A DNA stretch of 45,192 nt from Chitinophagaceae bacterium. Lineage in GTDB: Bacteria; Bacteroidota; Bacteroidia; Chitinophagales; Chitinophagaceae. The stretch is taken from NCBI GenBank assembly GCA_013140985.1, contig JABFRU010000010.1:1-45192 (forward strand), read 5' to 3'. Position numbers and translations under genes: made by a program. Every line of letters starts with the position of its first letter. The first letter of the stretch is position 1. The notes below the pieces were generated by a model. It was not told where the DNA came from and did not search any database. It was given only the letters and a program-made list of their open reading frames with translations. Of this stretch, positions 7,207-22,173 are shown one piece after another.

Positions 7207-8481
7207 GTGGTAATACTGATTTCGATCATATTCATACTGGGCTATCTTGCTATCGCTTTTGAGCATCCAATACGGATCAATAAAGCAGCAACAGCTTTGC
7301 TGACCGGCGTTCTTTGCTGGTCGGTATTTGCTTTGATGCAAAATGATAAACATCTTGTTTCCGAAGGCCTGGCTCATCATCTTTCAGAAATTGCCGGTAT
7401 CCTTTTCTTCCTGCTTGGTGCCATGGTAATTGTTGAATTAATAGATGCCCATGACGGTTTTGAGATCATTACCGAAAGAATAAAAAATACCAGCAAGAAG
7501 AAGCTGGTATGGATCATCGGGTTTCTTGCCTTTTTTCTTTCAGCGATACTCGACAACCTTACTACTGCCATTGTAATGGTCTCGCTGTTGCGGAAATTGA
7601 TACCCTCGCACAAAGACAGGCTGTTATTTGCGGGACTTGTCATCATTTCTGCTAATGCAGGAGGAGCATGGAGCCCCATTGGTGATGTAACCACTACTAT
7701 GCTCTGGATAGGAGGGCAGGTAACGGCAGGAAATATTATTGTCAAGACTTTTTTACCATCGTTGATTTGTTTTTTAGTTCCTGCAATAATTATAAGCATG
7801 CAGGTGAAAGGCAGGCTGGAAGAAGAAAGATCCGGGAAACAAAAACTTTTTTCAACCCCTAAGGAAAGAAAAGCTGTTTTTATCGTAGGGGTTGGCTGCT
7901 TATTGTTTGTTCCTGTTTTTAAAACAATAACAGAATTGCCACCTTATATGGGAATATTATTCGGTCTTGGCTTGATGTGGCTGATCACAGAGCTGATCCA
8001 TAGCGGGAAGGATGAAAGCGAAAAAGGATTAGTATCTGTTAATCATGCCCTGCGAAAGATTGATACACCGAGCATTTTATTTTTTCTCGGCATTTTATTA
8101 AGCGTAGCTGCGTTACAGGCAACCGGCATCCTTACATCCGTTGCTTCTTCGCTGGACAACTCGATCGGGAATATCAGGATCATTACTGTTATTATAGGCT
8201 TACTTTCTGCCGTAGTGGATAATGTGCCGCTGGTAGCTGCTGCACAGGGTATGTATGGTATGGATCAATATCCGGCCGATCATTATTTCTGGGAATTTCT
8301 TGCTTATTGCGCCGGTACTGGCGGAAGCATTTTAATTATCGGCTCTGCGGCCGGTGTTGCTGCAATGGGAATGGAAAGGATCCAATTTTTCTGGTACCTG
8401 AAAAAAATTGCCTGGCTGGCATTGACCGGTTATCTCGCCGGGGCTGCTGTGTTTTTGCTTCAACATTATATTACGGGGTGA
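7207..8481 (+). CDS. nhaD: NhaD-type Na+/H+ antiporter
   Basis: A 424-residue integral membrane protein of the ion-transporter superfamily. The first helix ILGYLAIAFEHPIRINKAA, the half-site SAILDNLTTAIVM and the matching second-half site LSAVVDNVPLVAA are hallmarks of NhaD, which exchanges Na+ or Li+ for protons across the inner membrane. The start is GTG at 7207. A stop at 7201-7203 blocks any extension and the first internal ATG is past residue 40, within the conserved fold. Its stop codon touches the stop of the convergent carbonic anhydrase (8482) with no base between. Its position beside the DAB island suggests a role in Na+ or pH homeostasis linked to bicarbonate uptake; that is inference. 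Confidence 0.88.
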   Translation: MVILISIIFILGYLAIAFEHPIRINKAATALLTGVLCWSVFALMQNDKHLVSEGLAHHLSEIAGILFFLLGAMVIVELIDAHDGFEIITERIKNTSKKKLVWIIGFLAFFLSAILDNLTTAIVMVSLLRKLIPSHKDRLLFAGLVIISANAGGAWSPIGDVTTTMLWIGGQVTAGNIIVKTFLPSLICFLVPAIIISMQVKGRLEEERSGKQKLFSTPKERKAVFIVGVGCLLFVPVFKTITELPPYMGILFGLGLMWLITELIHSGKDESEKGLVSVNHALRKIDTPSILFFLGILLSVAALQATGILTSVASSLDNSIGNIRIITVIIGLLSAVVDNVPLVAAAQGMYGMDQYPADHYFWEFLAYCAGTGGSILIIGSAAGVAAMGMERIQFFWYLKKIAWLALTGYLAGAAVFLLQHYITG

Positions 8482-9117
8482 TCAGAGATCATCGTATTCA
8501 TAGAGGTCATCAATATTAGACCCGGCTTTCATTTCATACACGGGTTTTATCAAACCATCTTTTAAACCATACACCCAGCCATGCAGGTCGGGCCGTTGTT
8601 CATGCTTCCATGCCCGTTGTATAATTGAAGTTTTAGCAAGGTTAAAAACCTGCTCCATCACATTCAGTTCTGTAAGGCGGTCAACTTTTTTATTGTCATC
8701 CATGATGAGGTCCAACTCTGAACGGTGTATTCTATAAACGTCTTTGATACCCCGGAGCCACATATTCAATACCGGTTTGAAATCATGATTGGTAACAGCC
8801 GCTTTGATACCACCGCAACCATAATGCCCGCAAACGATGATATGTTTTACTTTAAGATGATTGACAGCATAGTCGAGCACACTCAGCACATTTACATCTG
8901 TATTGATAACAAGGTTGGCCACATTGCGGTGTACAAATATTTCACCGGGGTCGGTGCCGGTGATCTCATTAGCCGGTACCCGGCTGTCACTACAGCCTAT
9001 CCAAAGAAATTCCGGTGACTGTAATTGTGAAAGCCGTTTAAAATACTCCGGATCATTTGAAACCTTTCCTTCAGCCCAATCCTTATTATTCTTAAGCAAT
9101 ACTTCGTATGGTTTCAT
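8482..9117 (-). CDS. Beta-class carbonic anhydrase (first copy)
   Basis: Interconverts CO2 and bicarbonate using zinc. The 211-residue sequence carries the beta-class ligands Cys42 and Asp44 (GCSDSR), His98 and Cys101 (CGHYGCGG), and the sequence FVHRNVANLV. It has no signal peptide, so it is cytosolic. It is closely related to the second copy at 11409-12131 (shared LWIGCSDSRVPANEIT, VKHIIVCGHY, DLHGW/HLHGWxYGLxDGLIK) but ends shortly after the catalytic domain in YEYDDL. It is divergent from the SulP-CA-Dab series, sharing the 180-base region 9118-9297, and convergent with nhaD. Confidence 0.95.
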   Translation of the reverse strand: MKPYEVLLKNNKDWAEGKVSNDPEYFKRLSQLQSPEFLWIGCSDSRVPANEITGTDPGEIFVHRNVANLVINTDVNVLSVLDYAVNHLKVKHIIVCGHYGCGGIKAAVTNHDFKPVLNMWLRGIKDVYRIHRSELDLIMDDNKKVDRLTELNVMEQVFNLAKTSIIQRAWKHEQRPDLHGWVYGLKDGLIKPVYEMKAGSNIDDLYEYDDL

Positions 9118-9297
9118 ACTTTTTTATTGATGATAAAAGTAGTTTATATATACCAGATCGTTACAATTGCAGAAAAATGACAAATTCACCGAACAACTAT
9201 GACGGCAGCTTGTTGATTATCTTTTTGTGACGATTGACCGTTCATTTAAATATAGTTTGGAAAAAAAAACTGGATGCATTATTTTGCGGCACTTTCG
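9118..9297. promoter_or_regulatory. Divergent control region between the two carbonic-anhydrase transcripts
   Basis: This AT-rich stretch must hold promoters for the minus-strand carbonic anhydrase and for the plus-strand Dab series. I find only near-matches to TAnnTTTG: TTATTTTG just before the plus-strand start and TACTTTTA (minus strand) near 9135. No clear operator palindrome is visible, so shared regulation is only suggested by the arrangement. Confidence 0.35.
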
Positions 9298-9660
9298 ATG
9301 AATAGAAAAAGGAAAATATACAGTCTTTTCAATAAAGTATCAGCCATTTGCATGATAATGGCGCTGCTATGGCTTACTGTAAGTTTGCCTTTTATTTTTT
9401 CTGCTGAACAGGAACTGGCATCAACAGAAAAGACCACTTCAGGTGTTCCGGGCAATGATGATGAATCGGCTGATCCTTTTGGTAGCAGCACGGAAGAAAA
9501 AGCCCCGTCAAGTACTTCTTTCTCTGAAGAATATTTACATGATCATTCTGCGCATGAGTATCTTTCTTTGAATACTCTTATACATCATGTTTGCGGTAAT
9601 GCAGGCACTTATATTGCCTTTCATGGCGAATTGCTTGTTCCTCCGCCCAACGCTGCATAA
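9298..9660 (+). CDS. Small exported or membrane-anchored His-rich protein heading the Dab series
   Basis: A 120-residue protein from the ATG at 9298 (an ATG at 9274 would add eight unsupported residues). A basic N-terminus (NRKRK) is followed by one hydrophobic helix at about residues 16-34. An acidic Ser/Thr-rich linker (about 38-75) leads to a C-terminal part with clustered histidines (HDHSAHEY, LIHHVCGNAG, AFHGELLVPPP) and one Cys. It probably faces the periplasm. The histidines could bind zinc or another metal, but I recognise no family. It precedes the SulP gene on the same strand by 106 bases and may be co-transcribed with it. Confidence 0.65.
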   Translation: MNRKRKIYSLFNKVSAICMIMALLWLTVSLPFIFSAEQELASTEKTTSGVPGNDDESADPFGSSTEEKAPSSTSFSEEYLHDHSAHEYLSLNTLIHHVCGNAGTYIAFHGELLVPPPNAA

Positions 9661-9766
9661 TTAATATCATCATTTATTCCTGATGGCTTGCGGGCCATTT
9701 AGTCCATTGTGTTGCCATTTTTCTATGGCGACCAGTTTACATACAGTATTAAAGAATTTTTACATC

Positions 9767-11395
9767 ATGAAGCCTAAAAAAGATCTATTAGCAAATCTTA
9801 AAAATGATTTGCCTTCCGGATTGGTTGTTTTCTTAGTAGCCTTGCCACTTTGTTTAGGTATTGCCATTGCCAGTGGAGCTACTCCTTTCAGCGGGTTGAT
9901 CGCTGGTATTATTGGTGGTATTGTCGTTGGAACGCTCAGTAATTCACCTTTAAGTGTAAGCGGCCCGGCCGCCGGGTTGGCCACACTTGTTAGCGGTGCT
10001 ATTCTTGCAATAGGAGGCGTAGAGAATTTCAATATTTTTTTATGCGCTGTTATTATAGCCGGTGGTATCCAAATTCTATTAGGAGCACTGAAGCTTGGAG
10101 GTATTGCCAATTATATTCCAGGCAGTGTTATCAAGGGAATGCTGACAAGTATCGGTATCCTGATCATCGCCAAACAAATACCGCATGCATTTGGCAGAGA
10201 CAGGGATGAGCAGGGCCATGTTACAGAATTGTTTCCTTTTGGAAATGAGGACTGGCATGAGTTGCTGATACCGCTCCAGAAAATTGAAGTAGGAGTGGCT
10301 ATTATCACCATTGTTTCTATACTTACTATGCTACTATGGGATAAATCGCCATTGAAAAAGAGATTGCCATATATTCCAGGTGTACTGGTGGCGGTATTAG
10401 TGGCGGTTGTTGTAAATGAGATATGGATAAGGACTGGTAGCAAAATGCAGATCGTTGAATCTTCCCACCTGGTAAGTTTGCCGGTTGCAAAGAATCCGCA
10501 GGAGTTCTTTGGATTTTTTACATTTCCTGATTTCAACGGCTTTGCCAATGGTACGGTGATCATGTATGGTTTTATTATTGCCCTCATCGCATCACTGGAA
10601 ACATTACTGAGTATAGAGGCTATTGATAATCTCGACCCGGAAAGAAGGGTTACTAACACCAATAAAGAATTGTTTGCACAAGGTGTAGGGAATACGATAT
10701 CCGGATTTATCGGCGGATTGCCTATTACCAGTGTTATTGTTCGCAGCAGTGCCAACGTTAACGCCGGTGCAAAAACAAAGTTCTCTACTATTTTTCATGC
10801 TTCTTTATTACTGGTAGCTGTTATATTGATACCTGGTCTGTTGAATAAGATCCCACTGGCAGTATTGGCGGCAATATTGATCCTTACAGGATGGAAGCTT
10901 GCCAAACCTGCCGTGTTCAAAGGATTCTGGAAAGCCGGTAAATATCAATTCATCCCTTTTATCGTAACGGTTATTGTTATTATCGCAATTGATCTTTTCA
11001 AAGCTGTTCCGGTTTTAAGCGGTTATGGGTTGATGATAGGTGTATTGGCAGGTATTATAGCGGCAATGGGTGCTATTTTACATGGCAACCTTAAGAATTC
11101 ATATTATTTTCATGAAGAAAGGCATTCAGTAGGTGATACGATCAACATCAGGCTTTCTGAAGAAGTTTCTTTTTTGAACAAAGCCGCTATCCGCCAAACA
11201 CTGGATCATATGCCGGTCAATTCATCAGTGGTGATCGATGCCAGCAATACAAAATATATTGATTACGATGTGCTGGAGCTGATCAAAGAATTCAGGGATA
11301 TTAAAGTTCCATTGAAAAACATTAACCTCCAGCTTGTAGGTTTCAAAGAAGCCTATAAAATGGAAAATTTATCACATGTACAATCTGTACGTTAA
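9767..11395 (+). CDS. SulP family anion transporter with STAS domain, probable bicarbonate importer
   Basis: A 542-residue transporter from the ATG at 9767; upstream in-frame codons (from 9683) are not family-like. The opening NLKNDLPSGLVVFLVALPLCLGIAIASG and the following helices are typical of SulP proteins. A C-terminal STAS domain begins at about residue 455 (VSFLNKAAIRQTLDHMP, VVIDASNTKYIDYDVLELI). SulP members carry sulfate, bicarbonate, chloride or dicarboxylates. Placement 13 bases before a beta-carbonic anhydrase and upstream of DabA/DabB points to bicarbonate, as in BicA-like and carbonic-anhydrase-linked SulP proteins. Substrate assignment is inference from context. Confidence 0.88.
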   Translation: MKPKKDLLANLKNDLPSGLVVFLVALPLCLGIAIASGATPFSGLIAGIIGGIVVGTLSNSPLSVSGPAAGLATLVSGAILAIGGVENFNIFLCAVIIAGGIQILLGALKLGGIANYIPGSVIKGMLTSIGILIIAKQIPHAFGRDRDEQGHVTELFPFGNEDWHELLIPLQKIEVGVAIITIVSILTMLLWDKSPLKKRLPYIPGVLVAVLVAVVVNEIWIRTGSKMQIVESSHLVSLPVAKNPQEFFGFFTFPDFNGFANGTVIMYGFIIALIASLETLLSIEAIDNLDPERRVTNTNKELFAQGVGNTISGFIGGLPITSVIVRSSANVNAGAKTKFSTIFHASLLLVAVILIPGLLNKIPLAVLAAILILTGWKLAKPAVFKGFWKAGKYQFIPFIVTVIVIIAIDLFKAVPVLSGYGLMIGVLAGIIAAMGAILHGNLKNSYYFHEERHSVGDTINIRLSEEVSFLNKAAIRQTLDHMPVNSSVVIDASNTKYIDYDVLELIKEFRDIKVPLKNINLQLVGFKEAYKMENLSHVQSVR

Positions 11396-11408
11396 AACAT
11401 TTATTATT

Positions 11409-12131
11409 ATGAACAAATCATATCAAAAACTAATACACGGAAATAAATTATTTTCTGAGGCAAAAAAATTCAGGGACCCTCACTACTTTGAACGTCTTGC
11501 ACAAGGACAAACGCCGGATTATCTGTGGATCGGCTGCAGCGACAGCCGGGTGCCCGCCAATGAGATCACCAATACGGAAAGCGGGGAGATATTTGTGCAC
11601 CGCAACATCGCTAACCTGGTAGTGCATACTGATACCAACCTCTTAAGTGTGCTGGAGTATGCAGTGAAGTATTTAAAAGTAAAACACATTATTGTTTGCG
11701 GCCATTATAACTGCGGGGGTGTGAAGGCATCAATGACTAATAACTTTCATGGTTTTGTTGATAACTGGTTGCGCAATATCAAAGATGTTTATTACAACTA
11801 TAAAAAAGAACTTGATGCTATAAAGGATATCGGTAAAAGAGCAGACAGGCTTTCCGAATTAAATGTGGTAGAGCAGGTGCGCAACCTGGCCAAGACCGCA
11901 ATAGTGCAATCTGCATGGGCAGAAAGGGAATTGCACCTGCATGGCTGGATATATGGACTAAATGATGGACTGATCAAAGACCTCAGTGTGATACATAACA
12001 GTAAAGAAGATATTGATGAGATATATCGCTTCGATATTGCCAATATCATTAAGCCGGTAAAAAGGAAAGTAAAACCAGCCAAGCCGGGGCTTATCAGAAA
12101 AACAAAATCGAAAAACAAAAATGCAGCATAA
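11409..12131 (+). CDS. Beta-class carbonic anhydrase (second copy, basic C-terminal tail)
   Basis: A 240-residue zinc enzyme with ligands Cys43, Asp45, His99 and Cys102 in GCSDSR and CGHYNCGG. The ATG at 11409 aligns with the start of the first copy; the upstream extension overlaps the SulP end. It has about 30 extra C-terminal residues, very rich in Lys, Arg and Pro (KPVKRKVKPAKPG, then a Lys-rich end), absent from the copy at 8482-9117. The gene begins 13 bases after SulP and overlaps the dabA start by 11 bases, so its product is likely made together with both transporters. The tail could bind membrane lipid, DabA or SulP; that is a guess. Confidence 0.95.
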   Translation: MNKSYQKLIHGNKLFSEAKKFRDPHYFERLAQGQTPDYLWIGCSDSRVPANEITNTESGEIFVHRNIANLVVHTDTNLLSVLEYAVKYLKVKHIIVCGHYNCGGVKASMTNNFHGFVDNWLRNIKDVYYNYKKELDAIKDIGKRADRLSELNVVEQVRNLAKTAIVQSAWAERELHLHGWIYGLNDGLIKDLSVIHNSKEDIDEIYRFDIANIIKPVKRKVKPAKPGLIRKTKSKNKNAA

Positions 12132-14652
12132 TATAAAAGAACATTTCAATGAAGACAATGCTATTCATAAACTGAAGCATTTTCTTCCTTCCCAGCAGGC
12201 ATTGAAGGATTTTATTCATCATAATTCCCTTCATGCTTTTCAGCACATGAAATTCTATGATGCAATTTTCAAAGCATCGAAGATCTTCGGTTTCCAGGTG
12301 CATTTGGAATTGTCCGAATACAGGGCCATGTATAAAACAGGTCGCATCCGGGAAGATATTTTGGGAAAGGTCATTGGCAAAAAGAAGAAAGACGTTACTG
12401 AATGGAAGAATAAACTCCTGAACAAAAAATACGATACGATCAATCATCCGCGGATCGGGCAGCTGCGCAGGCTTTGGAAAGATGTTTATCATTTCGATCT
12501 TGATAATAGGGTGCATCCATTATTGTATCGTATCCTTTGTGCTTTTCTTGACCAGGGTATTGCTGTAAAAGGATTCCCGGTGGCAAATAAGAGTTTTATT
12601 GAAAGTATCAAAGAGCTGGAAAGGAACAACTGGGTAAGTTTTTTTAAAACAAAAAGGGTTAAACAGCAATTTTTGTCGGGAGATTATTCCATCACAGCAT
12701 TGCTTAAAAGAATAGCAGGCAAAGAAGAATATTTTGAACAGTATTTATTTGACCAGCAGTTTGCCCATCATGGCTGGAGCGGCTTTACCAGTGCAGTAGA
12801 AGATAATCCACAGACATTGCTTGACAAAAAACTCATCACACTGAAAGAGCTGGCTGAGTTTGAATTGCTGATGGAGCTGGATGCGCTAACTCATCAGTTT
12901 GGTAATAACTGGCAGCCAATAACGAACCATGTTACTGTTCCGCCGCTTGATTTATTGGCCGATGAACCCCGCACTGAATTTTCCGAGGTAATAGAACTCT
13001 GGCAGGATGCATTTGAGTGGAGCTATTATGATTCAGTATTGAAAGGAATACTGATAGCCAAACCAAAACCACTTTCAAAAGAAGAAAGCTTTGCAGCTAT
13101 TTTTTGTATTGACGAAAGAGAAGATTCCATCCGCCGGCACATAGAAGCTGTAGATAAAAATTGCGAAACATTCGGTGCACCCGGTTTCTTTGGTGTGGAG
13201 TTTTATTTTCAGCAGGAAGGAAGTAAATTTTATGATAAACTATGTCCTGCGCCTGTTACACCAAAATATCTTATCAAAGAATATAATGCCGGAGAAATAA
13301 GAAAGGGTGAACCGCTTTATACAAAACACACACATGGAATACTCACCGGTTTCTTTTTATCGCTTACTTATGGCTTCTGGGCTTTGGGCAAAAAAATGCA
13401 GATGATGTTCAGCCCGAAGATGAGCCCGGCTATCTCAAATGCTTATGGACACATGGACCGCCAATCTGCTTTAACGATAGAGAATAAAAGCACGGCTGAT
13501 GTTGAAAATGGTTTGCAGATAGGATATACCATTGATGAGATGACTGCAAGGGCTGAAGGTTTTCTGCGGGGCATCGGCATGATTAATAATTTTGCTCCTA
13601 TTGTATATATCGTAGCACATGGCAGTAGCAGCGCTAATAATCCGCATCACGGCGCACATGACTGCGGCGCCTGCAGCGGAAGACCCGGTGCAACGAATGC
13701 AAGGGTGCAGGCCTTTATTCTCAATCATAAAAAAGTAAGAGCAGCCCTCGGTTCAAAAGGAATTGTGATTCCTGATTCGACACAGTTTGTCGGCAGCATG
13801 CACGATACAGCCGCTGATGTGATTGGTTATTACGATGAAGAAATATTGAATAAGGAAAATGCGGAACGTCATTTGCAAAACAAACAGAATTTTGAAACGG
13901 CGCTGAATTTAAATGCCAAAGAACGCAGCCGCCGCTTCGCTTCTATCAATACCAAACAAAGATTAGAGCATGTTCGGCAGGCCATTCATGAACGTTCGGT
14001 TTCCCTGTTTGAACCAAGACCTGAACTGGGTCATGGTACCAATACATTGGCCATCATCGGCAGAAGACAAACCACAAAAGGTTTGTTCCTTGACCGCCGT
14101 GCATTTCTCAACAGCTATGATTATTCCACCGACCCGGAAGGAAATATTCTTACAGCAGTAATGCGACCGATTGGTTTGGTTTGCGGGGGTATCAATCTGG
14201 AATATTATTTCTCAAGGGTGGACAATATTAAAATGGGTGCAGGCACCAAGCTGCCGCATAATGTGATGGGTCTTTTCGGTGTGGCCAACAGCAGCGATGG
14301 TGATTTGCGCCCCGGCCTTCCCTGGCAAATGATTGAAGTGCATGACCCGGTTAGATTATTAGTAATTGTTGAACACAGACCGGAGATTGTATTAAAAGCC
14401 ATTCAATCTTCTGAAGAAGTGTTTGAATGGTATAAAAATGAGTGGGTACATATCGTGGCACTGCATCCCGGGGAAAAGCAGTTTTATTATTTCTGTAATG
14501 GGGCATTTGAAAGATATGACCCTATTACTGATGCGAAAGAAATCGGCACCATTCACAATATGGAGGAATTTATTGAAGGGGCTGAAGAAATGGAGACCAA
14601 TCATATTGTGCATGCGACGGAGGAAAACTTGCCTGTTTACCTTTTAGATTAA
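12121..14652 (+). CDS. dabA: DabA, carbonic-anhydrase-like subunit of the inorganic-carbon pump (DUF2309)
   Basis: An 843-residue cytoplasmic-side subunit of the DAB complex, which with DabB accumulates dissolved inorganic carbon by turning CO2 to bicarbonate in one direction. The family active site is visible: Cys329 and Asp331 in FCIDERE, His500 in IVAHGSSS, and Cys515 in HDCGACSG. The spacing (2, 169 and 15 residues) closely follows the zinc site I recall for the Halothiobacillus protein (C351, D353, H524, C539). The N-terminal HNSLHAFQHM segment is also typical of DUF2309. Its start overlaps the end of the carbonic anhydrase gene by 11 bases. Also known as MpsB in staphylococci. Confidence 0.95.
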   Translation: MQHNIKEHFNEDNAIHKLKHFLPSQQALKDFIHHNSLHAFQHMKFYDAIFKASKIFGFQVHLELSEYRAMYKTGRIREDILGKVIGKKKKDVTEWKNKLLNKKYDTINHPRIGQLRRLWKDVYHFDLDNRVHPLLYRILCAFLDQGIAVKGFPVANKSFIESIKELERNNWVSFFKTKRVKQQFLSGDYSITALLKRIAGKEEYFEQYLFDQQFAHHGWSGFTSAVEDNPQTLLDKKLITLKELAEFELLMELDALTHQFGNNWQPITNHVTVPPLDLLADEPRTEFSEVIELWQDAFEWSYYDSVLKGILIAKPKPLSKEESFAAIFCIDEREDSIRRHIEAVDKNCETFGAPGFFGVEFYFQQEGSKFYDKLCPAPVTPKYLIKEYNAGEIRKGEPLYTKHTHGILTGFFLSLTYGFWALGKKMQMMFSPKMSPAISNAYGHMDRQSALTIENKSTADVENGLQIGYTIDEMTARAEGFLRGIGMINNFAPIVYIVAHGSSSANNPHHGAHDCGACSGRPGATNARVQAFILNHKKVRAALGSKGIVIPDSTQFVGSMHDTAADVIGYYDEEILNKENAERHLQNKQNFETALNLNAKERSRRFASINTKQRLEHVRQAIHERSVSLFEPRPELGHGTNTLAIIGRRQTTKGLFLDRRAFLNSYDYSTDPEGNILTAVMRPIGLVCGGINLEYYFSRVDNIKMGAGTKLPHNVMGLFGVANSSDGDLRPGLPWQMIEVHDPVRLLVIVEHRPEIVLKAIQSSEEVFEWYKNEWVHIVALHPGEKQFYYFCNGAFERYDPITDAKEIGTIHNMEEFIEGAEEMETNHIVHATEENLPVYLLD

Positions 14653-14658
14653 ATGATG

Positions 14659-14718
14659 CTCACAAATTTTCACTGATTATTTCCTATCCTTTCTGTGTAA
14701 ATCCGTGAAATCTGTGAG
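14659..14718 (+). repeat. Inverted repeat between dabA and dabB
   Basis: CTCACAAATTTTCAC (14659-14673) is nearly complementary to GTGAAATCTGTGAG (14705-14718), leaving a 31-base loop. The words TCTGTGTAAATCCGTG and ATCTGTG resemble those in the element at 18397-18551, so it may belong to the same intergenic repeat type. An A-run rather than a T-run follows, so it is not a good terminator; in RNA it could affect mRNA stability or the DabA:DabB ratio. Confidence 0.55.
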
Positions 14719-14731
14719 AAAAAAATAAACA

Positions 14732-16609
14732 ATGAACCAACTTGAAAAAATACTGAGCCAGTCCATCACATTATTTTTTATCGTGCCGCTGGCAGCTTTT
14801 TTGTTAACCCAGTTTTTTGATAACAAAAAAGAAAAAATTACCGGAACAATCGTCCGAATTGCCAAAGTGTTTTATATGCTTGCGGCCATATCCTTTGCCA
14901 TAGGTTGGGGCGTCAATGGATTTAGCCCCATCAGTTTTAAACTGGTGACGCTGTACCAGACAGAACATTTTGTATTTGCTATCAATTTTCATTACGATAA
15001 AATTACAGCTGTGTTCAGTATCGTGGGCTCGCTGATATTTTTCCTGGTGGCCACCTTCAGCAAATACTATATGCACCGGGATGAGGGGTACAAAAGATAT
15101 TTCAGTATTATCTTATTGTTTGCAGCAGGCTACAACTTTATCATCTTCTCCGGCAATTTTGAAACATTATTCATCGGGTGGGAAACAAAAGGACTCTGTT
15201 CGTTTTTACTGATTGCATTTTACCGCAACCGTTACCTGCCGGTGAAGAATGCATTTAAGACAATTTCCTATTACAGAATAAGTGATGTGGCTATGATGCT
15301 GGTGATGTGGATGATGCACCATCTCACTCATCAGAACATCAGCTTTACTCAATTAGGCGAAGCAAAAGAAATAGCAGAGCAAACAAATCATACCGGGATG
15401 GCTGTATTTATTATGAGCATGTTGTTATTAGCTGCCTTTATTAAATCTGCACAAGTGCCATTTACAAGTTGGTTGCCACGGGCAATGGAAGGCCCTACCT
15501 CATCTTCTGCCATTTTCTATGGTTCATTAAGTGTACATGTCGGTGTATTTGTTTTACTGAGAACCTATCCTTTCTGGCAAGATATGCTTTGGGTAAAAAT
15601 CCTGGTTATATCAATCGGAGCTTTAACCGCCATCATTGCTACGCTGATTGCAAGAGTGCAGCCTACAGTGAAAACACAGATTGCTTACTCGTCAGCAGCA
15701 CAGATTGGAATCATCTTTATTGAAGTTGCGCTGGGCCTTCACTGGCTGGCGTTGATACATTTTGCAGGTAATGCTTTTTTAAGAACCTATCAATTACTGG
15801 TATCGCCTTCGTTCCTTAATTACCTGGTGCATCACCAGTATTTCCATTATCATACCCAGCAGGAAAAACCGGTAGGACGCCTGCGAACCGGGTTGTACAT
15901 GCTCGGCATTAAGGAGTGGAATATGGACGCCTTGATGTATAAATATGTATGGAGCCCGTTTAAATGGATAGGAAGAAAATTAAACCCGCTTCAAAACCAG
16001 GCCGCTGTTATTTTATTTGCCATACTTGCTTTAGCATCCTTGTATTTTTCACACAGCAAAGCGGGATTCATTACAGAAAATAAAACTATCCTTTCGGTAA
16101 TCATGCTGTCGCTGGCATTGCTATCTGTACTTTTTGCTTTCACATACAGGGGTTCGGCATTAAAGGCGTGGATTTATATTTTCATTTCACACCTGTTCAT
16201 CTTCTCAGGTTTATTGCGAAACAGCACGGATGTGCATGCTGCAGAAGGGATGTTTTACAATATTGGTATCACCGCTGCATTCCTTCTTGGATTATTTTGC
16301 CTGATCACAACAAAAAAAGCAGACAATCATATCAGCCTGAACCAGTTTCATGGTTATGTGTATGAACAAAAGCCAACAGCGCTTTTGTTCCTGGTGTCGG
16401 CTATAGCCATGCTGGGTTTTCCTATCACTACTGCTTTTATCGGTATAGATGTTTTCTTTACTTATGTAAACAGCGATCAGTGGTTACTGATAACATTGCT
16501 GGCACTCTGTTTTATTTTTATTGAGTTGTCGGCTATCCGCATTTATCTGCGCATCTATTGCGGGCCGCATAAAAAGTTAAATCACCCGGTTGCATTCCGG
16601 TCGTCCTGA
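14732..16609 (+). CDS. dabB: DabB, membrane proton/sodium-coupling subunit (NuoL/MrpA-like)
   Basis: A 625-residue polytopic membrane protein of the proton-conducting antiporter family that includes complex I subunits NuoL/M/N. It shows Glu151 in FIGWETKGLC, Lys238 in AAFIKSAQVPF and the WLPRAMEGPT segment at 247-256, all characteristic of the family. No other complex I gene is nearby and it directly follows dabA, which identifies it as DabB (MpsA in staphylococci), the subunit thought to supply ion-motive energy to DabA. It is somewhat longer than many DabB proteins. A 79-base gap with an inverted repeat separates it from dabA. Confidence 0.93.
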   Translation: MNQLEKILSQSITLFFIVPLAAFLLTQFFDNKKEKITGTIVRIAKVFYMLAAISFAIGWGVNGFSPISFKLVTLYQTEHFVFAINFHYDKITAVFSIVGSLIFFLVATFSKYYMHRDEGYKRYFSIILLFAAGYNFIIFSGNFETLFIGWETKGLCSFLLIAFYRNRYLPVKNAFKTISYYRISDVAMMLVMWMMHHLTHQNISFTQLGEAKEIAEQTNHTGMAVFIMSMLLLAAFIKSAQVPFTSWLPRAMEGPTSSSAIFYGSLSVHVGVFVLLRTYPFWQDMLWVKILVISIGALTAIIATLIARVQPTVKTQIAYSSAAQIGIIFIEVALGLHWLALIHFAGNAFLRTYQLLVSPSFLNYLVHHQYFHYHTQQEKPVGRLRTGLYMLGIKEWNMDALMYKYVWSPFKWIGRKLNPLQNQAAVILFAILALASLYFSHSKAGFITENKTILSVIMLSLALLSVLFAFTYRGSALKAWIYIFISHLFIFSGLLRNSTDVHAAEGMFYNIGITAAFLLGLFCLITTKKADNHISLNQFHGYVYEQKPTALLFLVSAIAMLGFPITTAFIGIDVFFTYVNSDQWLLITLLALCFIFIELSAIRIYLRIYCGPHKKLNHPVAFRSS

Positions 16610-16610
16610 T

Positions 16611-17354
16611 ATGAAGAAATTGATTTTGATTCCTGTTTTTTTTATTACTGCAAACTTGTTAGCCCAACATGACAGGGTGAACGATTTTAATAATATCAAC
16701 TGGATTCAATCAATAAATACAATAGGGCTAAATAAACAATGGAGCCTGCATTTGGAATACCAGTGGCGGCGCACCGAAGGATTTAAAAACTGGCAGCAAA
16801 GTTTGCTGCGCATCGGGACCAATTATAAAGTGAATGATAATGTCAATGCCCACCTTGGTTATAGCCGGATCGAAACCTTTTCTTACGGCGACTACCCGAT
16901 TGCCAACAACGGCACCTTTTCAGAGCACCGCATCTATGAGCAACTGAATTTGCGGCAGCCAGTAAGCAAGTTTCTGTTTACTCATCGCTTTCGTATTGAA
17001 CAGCGATGGTTGGAGCGGATAGTACCCGGTGTAAGCGGGCCCGTCAAAGATTGGTTTTTCTTGCACCGCTTCCGCTACCAGTTCAGAACGCAGTATGCTT
17101 TTTATACAAAGGGCGAAAAACAATTCTATGGAGCAGCGGTGGATGAAATTTTTATTGGTGCAGGGAAAAATTTAGGGGTGAATATTTTTGACCAGAACCG
17201 GTTGTTCTTATTGCTCGGGGTTAAGCTGAACAAAAAAGTTTCAATTGAAACCGGGTATATGAATCAAACGCTGCAACAGGGAAGAAGAATAAATAACAGC
17301 ACCATCCTGCAACGGAATAATGGTGTTGTGCTGAGTACTTTTTTACATTTATAA
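16611..17354 (+). CDS. DUF2490-type outer-membrane beta-barrel protein
   Basis: A 247-residue protein from the ATG at 16611, one base after the dabB stop. It has a signal peptide (MKKLILIPVFFITANLLAQ) and then alternating amphipathic strands with aromatic girdles (WSLHLEYQWRR, FLFTHRFRIEQRWLER, WFFLHRFRYQFRTQYAF), ending in an aromatic/leucine strand. The pattern fits the DUF2490 family, predicted small beta-barrels of the outer membrane. The close spacing makes co-expression with DabA/DabB very likely. It could be a channel for bicarbonate or another anion, but that is not established for the family. Confidence 0.8.
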   Translation: MKKLILIPVFFITANLLAQHDRVNDFNNINWIQSINTIGLNKQWSLHLEYQWRRTEGFKNWQQSLLRIGTNYKVNDNVNAHLGYSRIETFSYGDYPIANNGTFSEHRIYEQLNLRQPVSKFLFTHRFRIEQRWLERIVPGVSGPVKDWFFLHRFRYQFRTQYAFYTKGEKQFYGAAVDEIFIGAGKNLGVNIFDQNRLFLLLGVKLNKKVSIETGYMNQTLQQGRRINNSTILQRNNGVVLSTFLHL

Positions 17355-17364
17355 ACTGATATGA

Positions 17365-18126
17365 ATGAATGCTGAAATCATTATTGCATTGTTTACCCTG
17401 ATTGCGCTTGAAGTAGTGCTGGGAATTGATAATATTATTTTCATTTCCATACTGGCATCAAGACTTCCGGAAAGCCAGCAAAAGAAGGCAAGACGAATGG
17501 GGTTACTGCTTGCTGCCATTATGCGGCTGGGTTTGCTGGCAGGTATTTCAATAATCCTGAAACTTGATAAAGGGTTATTTACACTTTTTGGTTTGAGTTT
17601 TTCAGGTAAGGATTTGATATTGATCGGAGGAGGTTTATTCCTGCTGTATAAAAGTGCTAAAGAGATTTATCACAAGACAGAAGGGGTTGAAGGGGATAAG
17701 TCGGCTAAGATGTCTGCCGTTACTTTTCCTGCTGTGATCGGACAGATTTTGCTGATGGATTTGGTATTTTCAATTGATTCCATCATTACGGCGGTAGGGA
17801 TGGTACAGCAGGTATGGGTAATGTATGCGGCAGTTATCATAACAGTTGTTATCATGTTTTTTGCAGCTGAAACGATCAGTGGTTTTGTGCACAAACACCC
17901 GGCCTTTAAAATGCTGGCCTTAAGTTTCCTGCTGTTGATTGGCTTTGCTTTGCTGGTGGAAGGGTTTGGTATAATAATTCCCAAGGGATATATTTATTTT
18001 TCTATGGCTTTTGCCTTGTTTGTGGATGTAATCCAAATGAGGATGCAGAAGAAAAAAACACCGCCGGTGCATTTGAAAGAGCATTATACAGAACAGGAAA
18101 GCAAAATAGAAAAGAAAAATTTATAA
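17365..18126 (+). CDS. TerC family integral membrane protein
   Basis: A 253-residue membrane protein. ALEVVLGIDNIIFISILASRLP near the N-terminus and DLVFSIDSIITAVGM in the middle are the two paired TerC signatures, with acidic residues inside helices. TerC-family proteins (including Alx and MeeF-type members) are linked to manganese or other cation export and to metal insertion at the membrane. It begins 10 bases after the DUF2490 gene and is probably the last gene of the transcript. The C-terminus is a charged cytoplasmic tail. Its stop is two bases from the convergent small membrane protein. Role in inorganic-carbon uptake, if any, is unknown. Confidence 0.9.
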   Translation: MNAEIIIALFTLIALEVVLGIDNIIFISILASRLPESQQKKARRMGLLLAAIMRLGLLAGISIILKLDKGLFTLFGLSFSGKDLILIGGGLFLLYKSAKEIYHKTEGVEGDKSAKMSAVTFPAVIGQILLMDLVFSIDSIITAVGMVQQVWVMYAAVIITVVIMFFAAETISGFVHKHPAFKMLALSFLLLIGFALLVEGFGIIIPKGYIYFSMAFALFVDVIQMRMQKKKTPPVHLKEHYTEQESKIEKKNL

Positions 18127-18128
18127 GC

Positions 18129-18389
18129 TCATACATCCAGTTCTTTCGACTTTTGTGGCAAATGGTCATATTCCCCCCTGAATGCATACCAGCCAAAAAT
18201 AACAAGCCCGATAGCAATAGGAGTAAAGATGGCGATGATAACGATCCAGTTGACAGGACTGTTGATCAGCTCTGTTTTTTTTGTATCAATATGTTTTAAT
18301 GCCCCGCTGATGAGTTCATAAATAACAAAAGGAGCTATGAATAAGAATAGCAGGCCGAAATATCTTTTAAAGGCGTTGAATTTTCTCAT
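18129..18389 (-). CDS. Small two-helix membrane protein beside an MFS carrier
   Basis: An 86-residue protein with helices at about residues 10-30 and 46-68 and a short acidic C-terminus. Small proteins of this size and layout sit next to MFS genes in other Bacteroidota; DUF6814 is a possible family, but I cannot confirm it by eye. It lies downstream of the MFS gene on the same strand, separated by a repeat element (18397-18551). It could be an accessory subunit or stabiliser of that carrier. Convergent with TerC. Confidence 0.7.
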   Translation of the reverse strand: MRKFNAFKRYFGLLFLFIAPFVIYELISGALKHIDTKKTELINSPVNWIVIIAIFTPIAIGLVIFGWYAFRGEYDHLPQKSKELDV

Positions 18390-18396
18390 GGTTTAT

Positions 18397-18551
18397 TTTT
18401 TTGCCACAGATGAACACAAATGAACACAGATAGGTTCGCCACGAAAACACACTAAATCACACAAAAGGGTTACTCTCTTTCGTGTTTGTTCGTGTGATTT
18501 CGTGGCTCTTACTTTTTCATTTTAAAATAATCTGTGTCCATCTGTGGGCAC
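18397..18551. repeat. Nested inverted repeat element
   Basis: The inner arms GCCACGAAAACACAC... (18438-18462) and ...GTGTGATTTCGTGGC (18482-18506) pair at about 20 of 25 positions. The outer arms CCACAGATGAACACA... (18404-18431) and ATCTGTGTCCATCTGTGG (18530-18547) pair with one internal gap. The words resemble non-coding repeats widespread between genes in Bacteroidota. There is no coding sequence within it and no transposase nearby. Confidence 0.7.
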
Positions 18552-18552
18552 A

Positions 18553-20100
18553 TTAATCATTTATATTTCTGTCAATTTTATTTCGCAAATATAAAACACC
18601 GATCACCAAACACAAAGCCGCAACGCCAATAGGATACCAAAGTCCAACCAATGGATCGGCCGGATAAGTTGTTGTCAGCAACAAACCAATAAAAGGAACA
18701 AGGCCACCGAATACACCATTGCCGATATGGTAAGGTAAACTCATAGAGGTATAACGGATTTTTGTCGGGAACATTTCAACTAAAAATGCGGCGATAGGGC
18801 CGTAAACCATGGTAACATACAGTATTAATATAAACACTAAGCCGACAAATTGCCAATAAGTGCTAGTGTTGACATGAACATTCTTTTGTGCTCTTAATCC
18901 AACTGCGGTTCCTTGATTTATTTTGTGAATGGTATCTGTAACTACTTCGGTGTAATACATGCCATTGCTTAAAGTAACAAGAGTGTTTCGAGTCATTAAT
19001 GAATCTTCCGAATTACTGATTGCCTCTATTTTAGTGCCAATCGCTTTTTCATTTGATCTTGTGATTCCTTTTCCTGAAAAAGCTTCCTGGTAATGGCCAT
19101 TAGAATCCTTTAGAAAAGTATTGAAGATCGGCCTGTATGTAAATATCGCCAATGCCATTCCAGCCATCATGATCCATTTCCTGCCGATCTTATCACTCAG
19201 CCATCCCCAAAAAATAAAAAAAGGAGTAGCAAACGCAATGGCCCATAACATGATCGTTCTGCTTTGCTCAAAATCGAGTTTGCATTTTGTCTCTAAAAAA
19301 TTCTGCGCATAGAACTGTCCCGTGTACCAAACCACTCCTTGCCCCATTACCGCACCAAACAATGCCAGCAATACCATTTTAAAATTCGCTTTGTGACGGA
19401 AACTTTCTTTCAAAGGATTGGCCGATGTTTTTCCTTCTGCTTTTAACTTAGAAAACAGCGGCGATTCTTTCATCCGCAAACGGATATAAATAGAAACACC
19501 AACTAATACTATCGAGATCCAGAATGGATAACGCCAGCCGCCCCACTCAGCATTGAAAGCAGCATCACTCATATTTGATTTTACTAAAAGAATAATACCG
19601 AGTGCAAGGAATAAACCCAATGTAGCCGTTGTTTGTATCCAGCTTGTGTAATAACCTCTTTTACCAACAGGGGCATGTTCGGCAACATAAGTAGCAGCGC
19701 CGCCATATTCTCCACCCAAAGCAAGGCCTTGTAAAATTCTTAATAATAAAACAAGTATGGGAGCCCAAATATCTATTTTTTCATAGCTGGGGATGCAGCC
19801 AATTAGAAAAGTAGAGCCGCCCATTAGTATCAGCGTCAGCAGGAAAGTATATTTTCTTCCGATAATATCTCCAAGTCGGCCGAAGACCAATGCACCAAAA
19901 GGACGAACGATAAAACCCATAGCAAAAATGGCCAGGGTACTTAGCAGTGCAGCCGTCGGATTGTCTTTGGGAAAAAATTGAAGGGAGATAGTTGTCGAAA
20001 GCATTCCGAAAATATAGAAGTCATACCACTCGATCATGGTGCCTACTGAAGAGGCGGCGATAACACTGCGTATCTTAGAAACATTGTTGGTTCCGTTCAT
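18553..20100 (-). CDS. MFS transporter of the metabolite:H+ symporter type with an inserted extracytoplasmic loop
   Basis: A 515-residue carrier. VGTMIEWYDFYIFGML at the first helix, GRLGDIIGRK (74-83) after helix 2 and RILQGLALGGEYGGA (121-135) are signatures of the metabolite:H+ symporter group (ProP, KgtP, ShiA relatives). Between helices in the C-terminal half an extra hydrophilic stretch of about 85-90 residues (about 328-415) is inserted; by topology it should face the periplasm. It is divergent from acs, suggesting uptake of acetate, propionate or another organic acid, but the substrate cannot be read from sequence. Confidence 0.88.
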   Translation of the reverse strand: MNGTNNVSKIRSVIAASSVGTMIEWYDFYIFGMLSTTISLQFFPKDNPTAALLSTLAIFAMGFIVRPFGALVFGRLGDIIGRKYTFLLTLILMGGSTFLIGCIPSYEKIDIWAPILVLLLRILQGLALGGEYGGAATYVAEHAPVGKRGYYTSWIQTTATLGLFLALGIILLVKSNMSDAAFNAEWGGWRYPFWISIVLVGVSIYIRLRMKESPLFSKLKAEGKTSANPLKESFRHKANFKMVLLALFGAVMGQGVVWYTGQFYAQNFLETKCKLDFEQSRTIMLWAIAFATPFFIFWGWLSDKIGRKWIMMAGMALAIFTYRPIFNTFLKDSNGHYQEAFSGKGITRSNEKAIGTKIEAISNSEDSLMTRNTLVTLSNGMYYTEVVTDTIHKINQGTAVGLRAQKNVHVNTSTYWQFVGLVFILILYVTMVYGPIAAFLVEMFPTKIRYTSMSLPYHIGNGVFGGLVPFIGLLLTTTYPADPLVGLWYPIGVAALCLVIGVLYLRNKIDRNIND

Positions 20101-20235: not shown

Positions 20236-22173
20236 ATGTCATACCCCTTTCAGATCACATCGCTGGAGCAATATCATAAGGATTATAAAAGAAGTGTGGA
20301 TGAACCGGAAGCTTTTTGGGCTTCGGTGGCGGAGAATTTTCAGTGGAGAAAGAAATGGGATAAAGTGCTTGAATGGAATTTTTCAGAACCTAAAGTAGAA
20401 TGGTTCAAAGGCGGCAAATTAAATATCACAGAGAATTGTATTGACCGTCATTTAAAAACAATGGGAGAGAAGCCGGCCATTATTTGGGAGCCCAATAACC
20501 CGGAAGAGAGAGTGAGAACGGTTACGTATAATCGTCTTCACAAAAGAGTTTGCCAGGTAGCACAAATGCTGAAGAACAACGGAGTAAAAAAAGGCGACCG
20601 GGTTTGTATTTATATGGGAATGGTTCCGGAATTGGCCTATGCTGTGCTGGGCTGTGCAAGAATAGGTGCCATTCATTCAGTGATCTTTGGTGGTTTTTCT
20701 GCGCAAAGTATTGCCGATAGGCTGGATGATGCAAAAGCAGAATATATTATTACCTGTGATGGGGCATACCGTGGCGGAAAAGATATTCCATTGAAAAGCG
20801 TAATTGATGATGCATTGATCGGAAATAAAACAGTAAAGAAAGTTATTGTTTATACAAGAACAAGAACTCCTGTTTCGATGATCAAAGGAAGAGATGTATG
20901 GTGGGAAGACGAAATGGATATTGCAGAGGAACAAATAGAAAAAAATGGAGTCGTTAGTTTCCCTGCTGAAGAAATGGATGCAGAAGATCCTTTGTTCATT
21001 CTATATACATCGGGCAGCACCGGCAAACCAAAAGGCGTTGTTCATTCCAGTGGTGGTTATATGGTATGGACCACCTACACTTTTGTAAACGTATTTCAAT
21101 ACAAGCCGGGACAGATTCATTTTTGTACAGCTGATGTTGGATGGATAACAGGACATAGTTATATCGTTTACGGCCCGTTGAGTGCAGGCGCTACTTCATT
21201 GATGTTTGAAGGCATACCAACATGGCCCGATGCAGGAAGATTCTGGGATATCGTTGATAAACATAAAGTGGATATTCTTTATACAGCGCCGACAGCTATC
21301 CGCAGTTTAATGGGTTTTGGTTTAGAGCCATTGAAAGGAAAAGATCTTTCATCCTTAAAAATATTGGGAACCGTTGGCGAACCCATCAATGAAGAAGCAT
21401 GGCACTGGTATGATGAGAATGTTGGAAAGAAAAAATGTCCCATCGTAGATACATGGTGGCAAACAGAAACAGGTGGCGCATTGATCACTAATTTGGCAGG
21501 AGTAACAGCAGCCAAACCATCCTGGGCCACTTTACCCATGCCGGGAGTTCAGCCCATTTTGGTTGATGAAAAAGGAAATGAGATCACAGAAAAAGATGAG
21601 AACGGTTTGTTGAAAGGAAATCTTTGTATCAAAGCGCCATGGCCTTCTATTCTGAGAACTACCTATGGCGATCATGAACGTTGCCGGACAAATTATTTTG
21701 CTACTTACGAGAACTTATATTTTACCGGCGATGGCGCATTGAAAGATGAAAATGGAAATTACCGCATCACCGGAAGAGTAGATGATGTATTAAATGTAAG
21801 CGGTCATCGTATTGGTACTGCCGAAGTGGAGAATGCCATCAATATGCATGCAGGAGTGGTTGAGAGTGCTGTAGTAGGCTACCCGCATGATATAAAAGGA
21901 CAGGGCATTTATGCTTATGTAATTTACAATGGCCATCATGGTGATGAGGAATTGCGAAGGAAAGATATTCTGCAAACGGTGACAAGAATAATCGGTCCGA
22001 TCGCCAGGCCTGATAAAATTCAATTTGTAAATGGCTTGCCAAAAACAAGAAGCGGGAAGATCATGCGGCGTATTTTGAGAAAGATAGCGGAAGGAGAGGT
22101 TTCTAATTTGGGCGATACAACCACACTGCTCGACCCTGGCGTCGTAGAAGAGATAAAGAATGGAAAATTGTAA
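20236..22173 (+). CDS. acs: Acetyl-CoA synthetase
   Basis: Activates acetate with ATP and CoA to acetyl-CoA through an acetyl-AMP intermediate; cytosolic. The 645-residue length equals that of well-known Acs enzymes. Visible motifs: the AMP-binding loop YTSGSTGKPKG (257-267), GWITGHSYIVYGPL, WWQTETGG, the adenylation hinge region YRITGRVDDV and the C-terminal PKTRSGK with Lys608, equivalent to the lysine whose acetylation switches the enzyme off in other bacteria. No acetyltransferase or deacetylase is adjacent. It is divergent from an MFS carrier, which may bring in its substrate. Confidence 0.97.
   Translation: MSYPFQITSLEQYHKDYKRSVDEPEAFWASVAENFQWRKKWDKVLEWNFSEPKVEWFKGGKLNITENCIDRHLKTMGEKPAIIWEPNNPEERVRTVTYNRLHKRVCQVAQMLKNNGVKKGDRVCIYMGMVPELAYAVLGCARIGAIHSVIFGGFSAQSIADRLDDAKAEYIITCDGAYRGGKDIPLKSVIDDALIGNKTVKKVIVYTRTRTPVSMIKGRDVWWEDEMDIAEEQIEKNGVVSFPAEEMDAEDPLFILYTSGSTGKPKGVVHSSGGYMVWTTYTFVNVFQYKPGQIHFCTADVGWITGHSYIVYGPLSAGATSLMFEGIPTWPDAGRFWDIVDKHKVDILYTAPTAIRSLMGFGLEPLKGKDLSSLKILGTVGEPINEEAWHWYDENVGKKKCPIVDTWWQTETGGALITNLAGVTAAKPSWATLPMPGVQPILVDEKGNEITEKDENGLLKGNLCIKAPWPSILRTTYGDHERCRTNYFATYENLYFTGDGALKDENGNYRITGRVDDVLNVSGHRIGTAEVENAINMHAGVVESAVVGYPHDIKGQGIYAYVIYNGHHGDEELRRKDILQTVTRIIGPIARPDKIQFVNGLPKTRSGKIMRRILRKIAEGEVSNLGDTTTLLDPGVVEEIKNGKL

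Follow-up and report, generated by a model that had tools for sequence, protein, structure and literature searches.

We analysed a window of 45,192 nt from a Chitinophagaceae bacterium (GenBank contig JABFRU010000010.1), which is the entire contig C7 within a 3.86-Mb, 83-contig genome. The window carries what looks, from its genes, like a dissolved-inorganic-carbon (DIC) uptake operon of a known kind, in which a SulP transporter, a beta-carbonic anhydrase (CA) and the DabA and DabB proteins are encoded in close succession. Our subject is the small open reading frame (ORF) at the head of this operon, which ends in a proline tail. It is a distinctive, widespread feature that an earlier note on this DNA overlooked, and it is probably a regulatory leader. 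The features of the locus are as follows.

9298..9660, plus strand: small upstream ORF of 120 aa, proposed leader (the longest ORF begins at 9274)
9640..9651, plus strand: PPPN codons, proposed stall site (stop codon at 9658-9660)
9682..9699, plus strand: hairpin 1, 3′ of the small ORF (GATGGCT/GGCCATT; stem search with shuffles)
9712..9731, plus strand: hairpin 2, 5′ of the SulP start (TTGCCAT/ATGGCGA; stem search with shuffles)
9767..11395, plus strand: SulP transporter, likely for bicarbonate (Sulfate_transp, 212.7 bits; longest ORF from 9683)
11409..12131, plus strand: CA2, a beta-carbonic anhydrase (Pro_CA, 191.5 bits; longest ORF from 11376)
12121..14652, plus strand: DabA, also MpsB (PF10070, 687.7 bits against a cut-off of 25)
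14732..16609, plus strand: DabB, also MpsA, a Complex I/Mrp-like membrane subunit (Proton_antipo_M, 136 bits; Proton_antipo_N, 36.4 bits)
16611..17354, plus strand: predicted DUF2490 beta-barrel, an occasional companion (160.3 bits; ATG at 16611)
after DUF2490, plus strand: TerC (Pfam, 157.3 bits)
8482..9117, minus strand: CA1, a beta-carbonic anhydrase divergent from the operon (Pro_CA, 179.9 bits; NF007756, 257.8 bits against a cut-off of 251)
7207-8481: NhaD (Pfam CitMHS, 128.2 bits; NCBIfam NF038006 NhaD_1, 168.6 bits against a cut-off of 80)

Pfam, NCBIfam and the ORFs agree with the gene calls and positions that the earlier note gave for NhaD, CA1, the small ORF, SulP, CA2, DabA, DabB, DUF2490 and TerC; against NCBIfam TIGR00775, NhaD scores 420.7 bits, under the cut-off of 577.1. 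With start codons picked by eye from the translations (several of the longest ORFs begin further upstream), the small ORF ends 106 nt before SulP, SulP ends 13 nt before CA2, CA2 and DabA overlap by 11 nt, and gaps of 79, 1 and 10 nt separate DabA from DabB, DabB from DUF2490 and DUF2490 from TerC. The measured spacing thus bears out the plus-strand series with gaps or overlaps of 1-106 bases described before. The small ORF had been described as His-rich; its gene is indeed present on the plus strand, but the label is a poor one: what stays constant is the hydrophobic N-terminus, TEEK, SEEYLH and an HGEL..PPPN tail.

We compared gene order in 77 loci around DabA relatives and in added stretches of further genomes, leaving the short loci from whole-genome searches (L001-L017 and L095-L115) out of the neighbourhood counts, which thus do not cover the DabA surroundings of some sampled genomes. 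Sixty-two DabA genes had 6 kb or more of sequence upstream; there we found SulP on the same strand at 45, the small-ORF family at 31, a divergent CA at 24 and NhaD at 9. DabB follows DabA at all compared loci, except where the contig ends. The same gene order is found in relatives, and the arrangement is therefore above chance. The conserved core, recurring in Chitinophagaceae, consists of a divergent CA1 followed by small ORF-SulP/CA-DabA-DabB, with SulP and CA in either order.

A proline-tailed small ORF before SulP and carbonic anhydrase genes

The small ORF of the window, here called the leader, encodes a hydrophobic N-terminal helix, an acidic/His site (SEEYLHDH) and the tail HGELLVPPPNAA-stop, ending in PPPNAA; it belongs to no Pfam or NCBIfam family. 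A profile search found 37 members of its family in the DabA loci and the window, and 50 over all loci, of which 49 are distinct (L129 duplicates L028 and was excluded). Common to the members are a hydrophobic N-terminal stretch, TEEK, SEEYLH and the tail YxAFHGELLVPPPN (alignment A1). By hydropathy, the N-terminus is strongly hydrophobic, as a putative signal would be. The AlphaFold2 model is confident solely in an N-terminal helix (residues 10-47), with no confident fold beyond it. In 34 members, about 78-86 residues separate the hydrophobic stretch from PPP. The acidic/His pattern [ED]E.{0,3}H occurs in 33 of 34 members of the window's family (8.1 expected), in 12 of 21 newly sampled ORFs (3.5 expected) and in none of 11 unlike ORFs (2.1 expected), and its start lies 39 residues ahead of the last PP in 27 of 33 family members (range 32-40).

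The position of the leader is equally regular. Of the 49 distinct members, 48 have SulP or CA as the next same-strand marker gene and one has DabA, 95-404 bp away, and the leader is never found inside the SulP-CA-DAB series. Leader matches occur in 17 of 58 genomes of relatives (own genome included; two are weak), and in 5 of 395 genomes of the class (own included), so the window's leader family is narrow. The two weak matches (G032 and G037, E = 7.6e-4 and 9.8e-4) have none of the marker genes nearby and were treated as chance. In all seven strong-match genomes without a DabA match, the leader stands directly before SulP or CA, as it does in four of four further genomes for which only the fetched stretch was examined and shows no DabA. 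Because the leader precedes SulP or CA also where no DabA was found, we assign it to the SulP-CA module and not to DAB. Three loci (L018, L019 and L025) have a further member of the family on the minus strand at 14.5-16.7 kb, ahead of an additional, divergent SulP (23-26% identical) that is convergent with DabB. The motif TAnnTTTG, which we take to be the Bacteroidota -7 promoter box, occurs within 200 nt upstream of 14 of 49 leaders, compared to 6.2 by shuffling; it is absent in the window and was not used.

The tail is the most constant part of the leader. PPP is present in all 49 members, and in 46 of them the protein ends with PPP-N/D and 1-4 further residues. The last PP is followed by N, D or E in 47 of 49 members of the window's family, in 13 of the 16 small ORFs of unlike sequence (P = 1.4e-7) and in 20 of 21 newly sampled ORFs from 10 of 11 genera (P = 7e-14), compared to 83 of 434 PPx in ORFs of at least 250 aa; both P-values overstate the case, because the sequences are partly related. 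Relative entropy is 2.94 in the last 18 leader columns and 1.95 elsewhere. Synonymous identity at the tail is 0.03-0.04 over expectation, which is not above the leader average of 0.05, and the first proline is encoded by CCC in 16, CCT in 15, CCG in 9 and CCA in 9 members. The tail is thus conserved mainly at the peptide level. We also considered an RNA element within the leader ORF and rejected it, since synonymous identity at the tail does not exceed that of the rest, despite a bias toward CCC at the third proline. Pauses that depend on EF-P include those at PPD, PPN, PPE and PPP, with PPD and PPN in the pausing set only (PMC4140641, Table 1). The genome has an EFP_N match.

At loci where the family profile has no match, SulP is often preceded by a small acidic ORF of unlike sequence that begins with a hydrophobic stretch and ends in PP(P). 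The 1.61 Mb of loci contain 79 small ORFs that start hydrophobic and end in PP: 60 are at most 500 bp upstream of SulP, CA or DabA, 11 belong to another family and 8 look like chance. With the window's own family included, a PP-tail ORF stands at 37 of 50 SulP gene heads and at 2 of 20 DabA heads, while the control heads have none (0 of 15 for acs, 0 of 12 for nhaD, 0 of 10 for MFS and 0 of 9 for terC). As a separate sample, 198 Bacteroidota genomes were searched with the window's SulP; 175 had a match, and 30 loci, all among the most similar, were examined. A PP-tail ORF with a hydrophobic start lies upstream of SulP in 24 of the 30 loci, in 21 of the 27 new loci and in 14 of 19 genera (L131, L132 and L151 repeat earlier loci and are excluded from the counts of 21 in 27 and 20 in 21). 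In the 136 kb sampled, 26 of 27 such ORFs are upstream on the SulP strand, and a CA is found within 1.5 kb in 25 of the 30 loci.

Two further groups of small ORFs were seen at these loci. For the other PP-tail family (PPPNFC-type), six loci were inspected, picked from eleven; at five of them the ORF precedes an ORF trio (L018, L023, L030, L034 and L052; minus strand, downstream of DabB), identified by Pfam in L030 as ABC exporter, HlyD and OEP, and L043 has the ORF without the trio. In DabA-first operons (L076, L078, L079, L081, L086, L087, L089 and L093; also L072 and L082), a small acidic ORF with a hydrophobic start comes first, and its tail, approximately P-[LI]-[YF]-[IL]-xxxx-L-R-I-stop (roughly PLYIxxRxLRI-stop), constitutes a second tail class. 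The two of these ORFs that were tested, from L081 and L093, have no family match.

Structure in the gap after the leader

We searched for stems in 42 of the 49 gaps between the leader and the next gene, namely those of 75-200 nt, using two zones (the first 65 nt and the last 55 nt). When CA comes next (n = 21), stems reach P ≤ 0.1 in the first zone of 18 gaps (8 at P ≤ 0.05; combined P = 3e-9) and P ≤ 0.05 in the last zone of 12 (combined P = 1e-8). When SulP comes next (n = 21), a stem at P ≤ 0.05 is found in 6 gaps in the first zone (2e-4) and in 5 in the last zone (9e-4), all of these statistics counting relatives as independent and the two zones overlapping in gaps shorter than 120 nt.

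On alignment A5, whose 15 rows were all selected for having a stem, 82.5% of cells pair in hairpin 1, compared to 68.9% when shuffled (reached in 0 of 500 shuffles) and at most 60.8% when the stem is slid. The stem covaries on this alignment: six of its eight pairs change on both sides, which 15 of 500 shuffles also reach. In the window itself, hairpin 2 has P = 0.01 and is present in the centroid fold. The support for hairpin 2 comes from the per-sequence shuffle test, because MAFFT alignment A4 gave no consensus fold. No Rfam family matches the window at gathering scores. In the 60 nt after the stop codon, the mean structure z-score is lowest after the leader (-0.89, n = 49), followed by CA (-0.79), Acs (-0.61), DabB (-0.56), TerC (-0.47), SulP (-0.40), NhaD (-0.05), DUF6814 (+0.14), DabA (+0.27), DUF2490 (+0.31) and MFS (+0.45).

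The uptake module, its neighbours and carbon use

The window's DabA, the only DabA match in the whole genome, has the zinc-site residues C329, H500 and C515 together with D331 and R333, positions that are kept in 77-79 of 81 aligned DabA sequences (one substitution, the remainder gaps). In DAB2, the zinc ligands C351, H524 and C539 and the D353-R355 dyad are needed (PMC13144422). Both this zinc site and the Complex I-like DabB are shared with the DAB/MpsAB systems of Halothiobacillus neapolitanus (DAB2) and Staphylococcus aureus (MpsAB); the difference here is that they form one operon with SulP and CA, headed by a proline-tailed small ORF. In the window's genus, all 10 genomes with a DabA match are at least 3.4 Mb in size, and the sampled genomes smaller than 3.4 Mb, several of them incomplete, have no DabA match.

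The nearest solved structure to the window's SulP is 6ki1_A (E = 3.5e-23; titled 'Low affinity sulfate transporter'), which we take to be BicA. Like a BicA-type SulP, the window's protein is paired with a CA; unlike one, it is far under the NCBIfam BicA equivalog cut-off (130.1 compared to 880 bits) and is classed as SulP only. It also differs in having a glutamate aligned with an aspartate of the BicA sodium site. Its substrate is likely bicarbonate. A second SulP in the same genome (C24:117960-119462, locus L161) is 44% identical, and a 460-aa ORF ends just upstream of it. CA1 and CA2 are 60% identical, whereas the in-operon CA of most relatives is only 23-34% identical to CA2 (tblastn); perhaps a CA1-type copy has replaced a more distant CA in the window's operon slot.

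The genes beyond DabB are less constant. Downstream of 57 DabA genes with at least 6 kb of downstream sequence, DUF2490 occurs on the same strand at 7, and TerC is convergent at 6 and on the same strand at 1, the window itself. DUF2490 has 0-4 copies per genome (58 genomes), so its occurrence after 7 of 57 DabA genes is above chance; it is still optional. The AlphaFold2 model of DUF2490 has 11 strands (mean pLDDT 82.8) and its best PDB match is the NanC porin (E = 1.2e-3), which predicts a beta-barrel and does not imply carbon transport. TerC is a neighbour, outside the carbon operon. The gene-order comparison across relatives that the earlier note had proposed as a check was thus split in its outcome: SulP and CA are conserved next to dabA, but DUF2490 is found only sometimes and TerC is not. 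On the other side of TerC, a block of DUF6814 (86 aa), an MFS transporter and acs (window positions 18129-20100, minus strand, and 20236-22173, plus strand) recurs near the dab loci of several relatives.

The RuBisCO large subunit has no match in the genome, in agreement with the earlier observation that no Rubisco is visible, and the description of a DAB, SulP and CA locus in such a genome is upheld by the recurrence of same-strand SulP (45 of 62) and divergent CA (24 of 62) upstream of DabA. The suggestion that the locus feeds anaplerotic carboxylases is weakened: PEP carboxylase and the PYC_OADA domain of pyruvate carboxylase also have no match in the genome, which does have an ATP-PEPCK match and three carboxyltransferase matches. 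Because RuBisCO, PEP carboxylase and pyruvate carboxylase have no match, the carbon most likely serves ordinary carboxylations and the ordinary demand for bicarbonate. MpsAB in Staphylococcus aureus is a precedent in a non-autotroph (PMC6689103).

Proposed control by the leader and its alternatives

We consider it moderately probable that the window holds a DIC uptake operon led by an exported leader that stalls the ribosome and regulates the operon, rather than forming part of the pump; we infer its export, stalling, signal and control of the operon from sequence. By this mechanism, the 120-aa leader would be threaded into the Sec channel via its N-terminal signal until the PPP-Asn just before the stop codon slows or stalls the ribosome. 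The length of the stall would be set by the pull on the exported part, or by a ligand bound to it, the acidic/His site being 39 residues ahead of the last proline pair. Depending on whether it is stalled or released, the ribosome would then alter the folding of hairpins in the 106-nt gap, and this folding would set how much SulP, CA, DabA and DabB is made. The uptake parts under such control would be the SulP transporter, the beta-CA and DabA-DabB as an energy-coupled, CO2-hydrating pump.

Leaders of comparable plan are described in other systems. CutF of Rhodobacter capsulatus is an exported upstream ORF (uORF) with a proline-rich C-terminus and a hairpin that shields the next gene (PMC9973294), and the window's leader is similarly a small upstream ORF with a proline-rich C-terminus and a hairpin before the next gene. 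The operational definition of a CutF-like ORF in the same paper is a length below 150 aa, PP within the 15 C-terminal residues, a same-strand gene within 1000 nt and an N-terminal signal peptide; the window's leader has 120 aa, a PPPNAA end and SulP 106 nt on. It differs from CutF in that there is no CxxxC copper site, SulP, CA and DAB take the place of metal genes downstream, and no DUF2946 match was seen: for the window's leader only DUF6219 appears, at E = 0.12, and DUF2946 is not found among the matches listed for the family (25 of 36 families, E ≤ 10, 34 members). CruR of Bordetella pertussis is a DUF2946 protein with RAPP, in place of which the leader has PPP-N/D, as it has EEYLH in place of CXXC; the leader has 39 residues from the start of EE to the last PP, compared to 45 intervening residues in CruR. 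According to the CutF authors, CruR functions without its signal (PMC9973294). A reading of the leader as a DUF2946/RAPP protein was rejected.

The leader also resembles the Sec/YidC arrest peptides (SecM, MifM and VemP; the NSP-stop and NAP-stop uORFs of Bacteroidota; uA_LPPP). It shows the features screened for in PMC10987492, its signal being judged by hydropathy only, except in its downstream gene, which is SulP, CA or DAB here and secA, secDF or yidC there. In particular, it has a conserved C-terminal end and a spacer of more than 30 aa. That survey, which covered ORFs upstream of secA, secDF and yidC in 30,000 genomes, has among its clusters proline-ended ones that occur in Bacteroidota alone (PMC10987492). 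By plan, position and tail, the leader would thus fit the class of arrest leaders, and what appears to be new is its target genes and its wide spread in Bacteroidota. The main text of the CutF paper (PMC9973294) has no mention of SulP, sulfate or carbonic, and that of a 2025 survey of RAPP/RGPP uORFs (PMC12992588) has none of PPP, SulP or carbonic. Among the papers listed from the open-licence literature, we found no nascent-chain leader for inorganic carbon or bicarbonate transport.

A number of observations weigh against control by a stalling leader. Its signal sequence is judged by hydropathy and the structural model only, and bicarbonate is only the likely substrate of SulP. In LepB fusions, the proline tail of CutF alone produces no detectable stall (PMC9973294). 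Pausing is not exclusive to a following N, D or E, because PPG, PPS, PPQ, PPK and PPT also pause (PMC4140641). The third proline favours CCC (31 of 49), which indicates some RNA-level bias. A DUF6814 or NhaD gene on the same strand ends only 84-284 bp before the leader in 4 of 49 cases (L120, L121, L125 and the second copy of L025), where the leader may not be the first gene of the transcript. No PP-tail ORF is found at 6 of the 30 sampled SulP loci (5 of 19 genera), at 18 of 20 DabA-headed operons, or within 700 bp of the second SulP of the window's own genome (L161). The sample itself is uneven, as 9 of its 30 loci come from one genus and 27 from the window's class; of the three outside the class, one has the ORF. 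As for RNA structure, the stem statistics treat relatives as independent, the zones overlap in the shorter gaps, selecting the A5 rows for a stem favours pairing, and hairpin 1 of the window is weak (P = 0.09) and missing from the minimum-energy fold. Structure after the leader is the lowest in z-score yet not unique, CA gaps being nearly as structured.

The small ORF could instead encode a periplasmic or membrane-anchored SulP subunit, or a zinc chaperone for the CAs and DabA, with the PPPN tail as a docking motif. We consider this unlikely, though it deserves to be taken seriously: the ORF is tightly linked to SulP and CA, CA and DabA are zinc enzymes, the acidic/His site keeps its 39-residue distance to the last PP (27 of 33 members), and the conserved middle blocks of the leader could equally serve to bind a partner. 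The small ORFs before SulP in other lineages, however, have the same plan and little common sequence, and an ORF of this sort also stands at the head of an ABC/HlyD/OEP operon, which is unrelated. The ORF is also never inside the SulP-CA-DAB series, the residue after PP is limited to N, D or E, and there is no confident fold.

Joint action of SulP, DAB, CA, the DUF2490 barrel, TerC and NhaD across both membranes, the composite island of the earlier note, is very improbable. The genes are closely spaced in the window, DUF2490 follows DabB above its copy-number expectation and NhaD is near 9 of 62 DabA genes; but same-strand TerC is near only 1 of 57 DabA genes and DUF2490 near 7 of 57, which speaks against a single island, and the SulP-CA module occurs without DAB. 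We give the least credence to an ordinary DIC operon in which the small ORF is a lineage-specific protein with no special role and its tails are alike by common descent. Such descent explains the tail inside the window's family, which is narrow (5 of 395 class genomes, own included), but it does not account for residues that stay while most synonymous sites vary, or for unlike small ORFs that have both PP-[N/D/E] near the stop codon and the position before SulP.

Extending control by a stalling leader beyond the window's family, we tentatively suggest, with a good deal of doubt, that Bacteroidota might control bicarbonate uptake by widespread, repeatedly re-made exported leaders whose PP(P)-[N/D/E] end immediately precedes the stop codon. 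The nascent chain would sense the envelope, through proton-motive pull on its acidic stretch or through zinc or pH at the acid/His site, and would set how much SulP-CA and DAB is translated. Other transport operons (ABC/HlyD/OEP) would be headed by relatives built to this plan, and DabA-first operons by the second tail class.

For annotation, the small ORF would move from 'hypothetical' to likely regulator, and TerC would be removed from the carbon operon. Simple rules (a hydrophobic start, PP-[N/D/E] before the stop codon, and a position directly before a transporter gene) could find more leaders, and envelope-to-ribosome signalling would become testable by single-codon changes. Nascent-chain leaders have so far been described for protein export and copper; if the proposed mechanism is true, many Bacteroidota would possess a translational switch for the acquisition of CO2 and bicarbonate.

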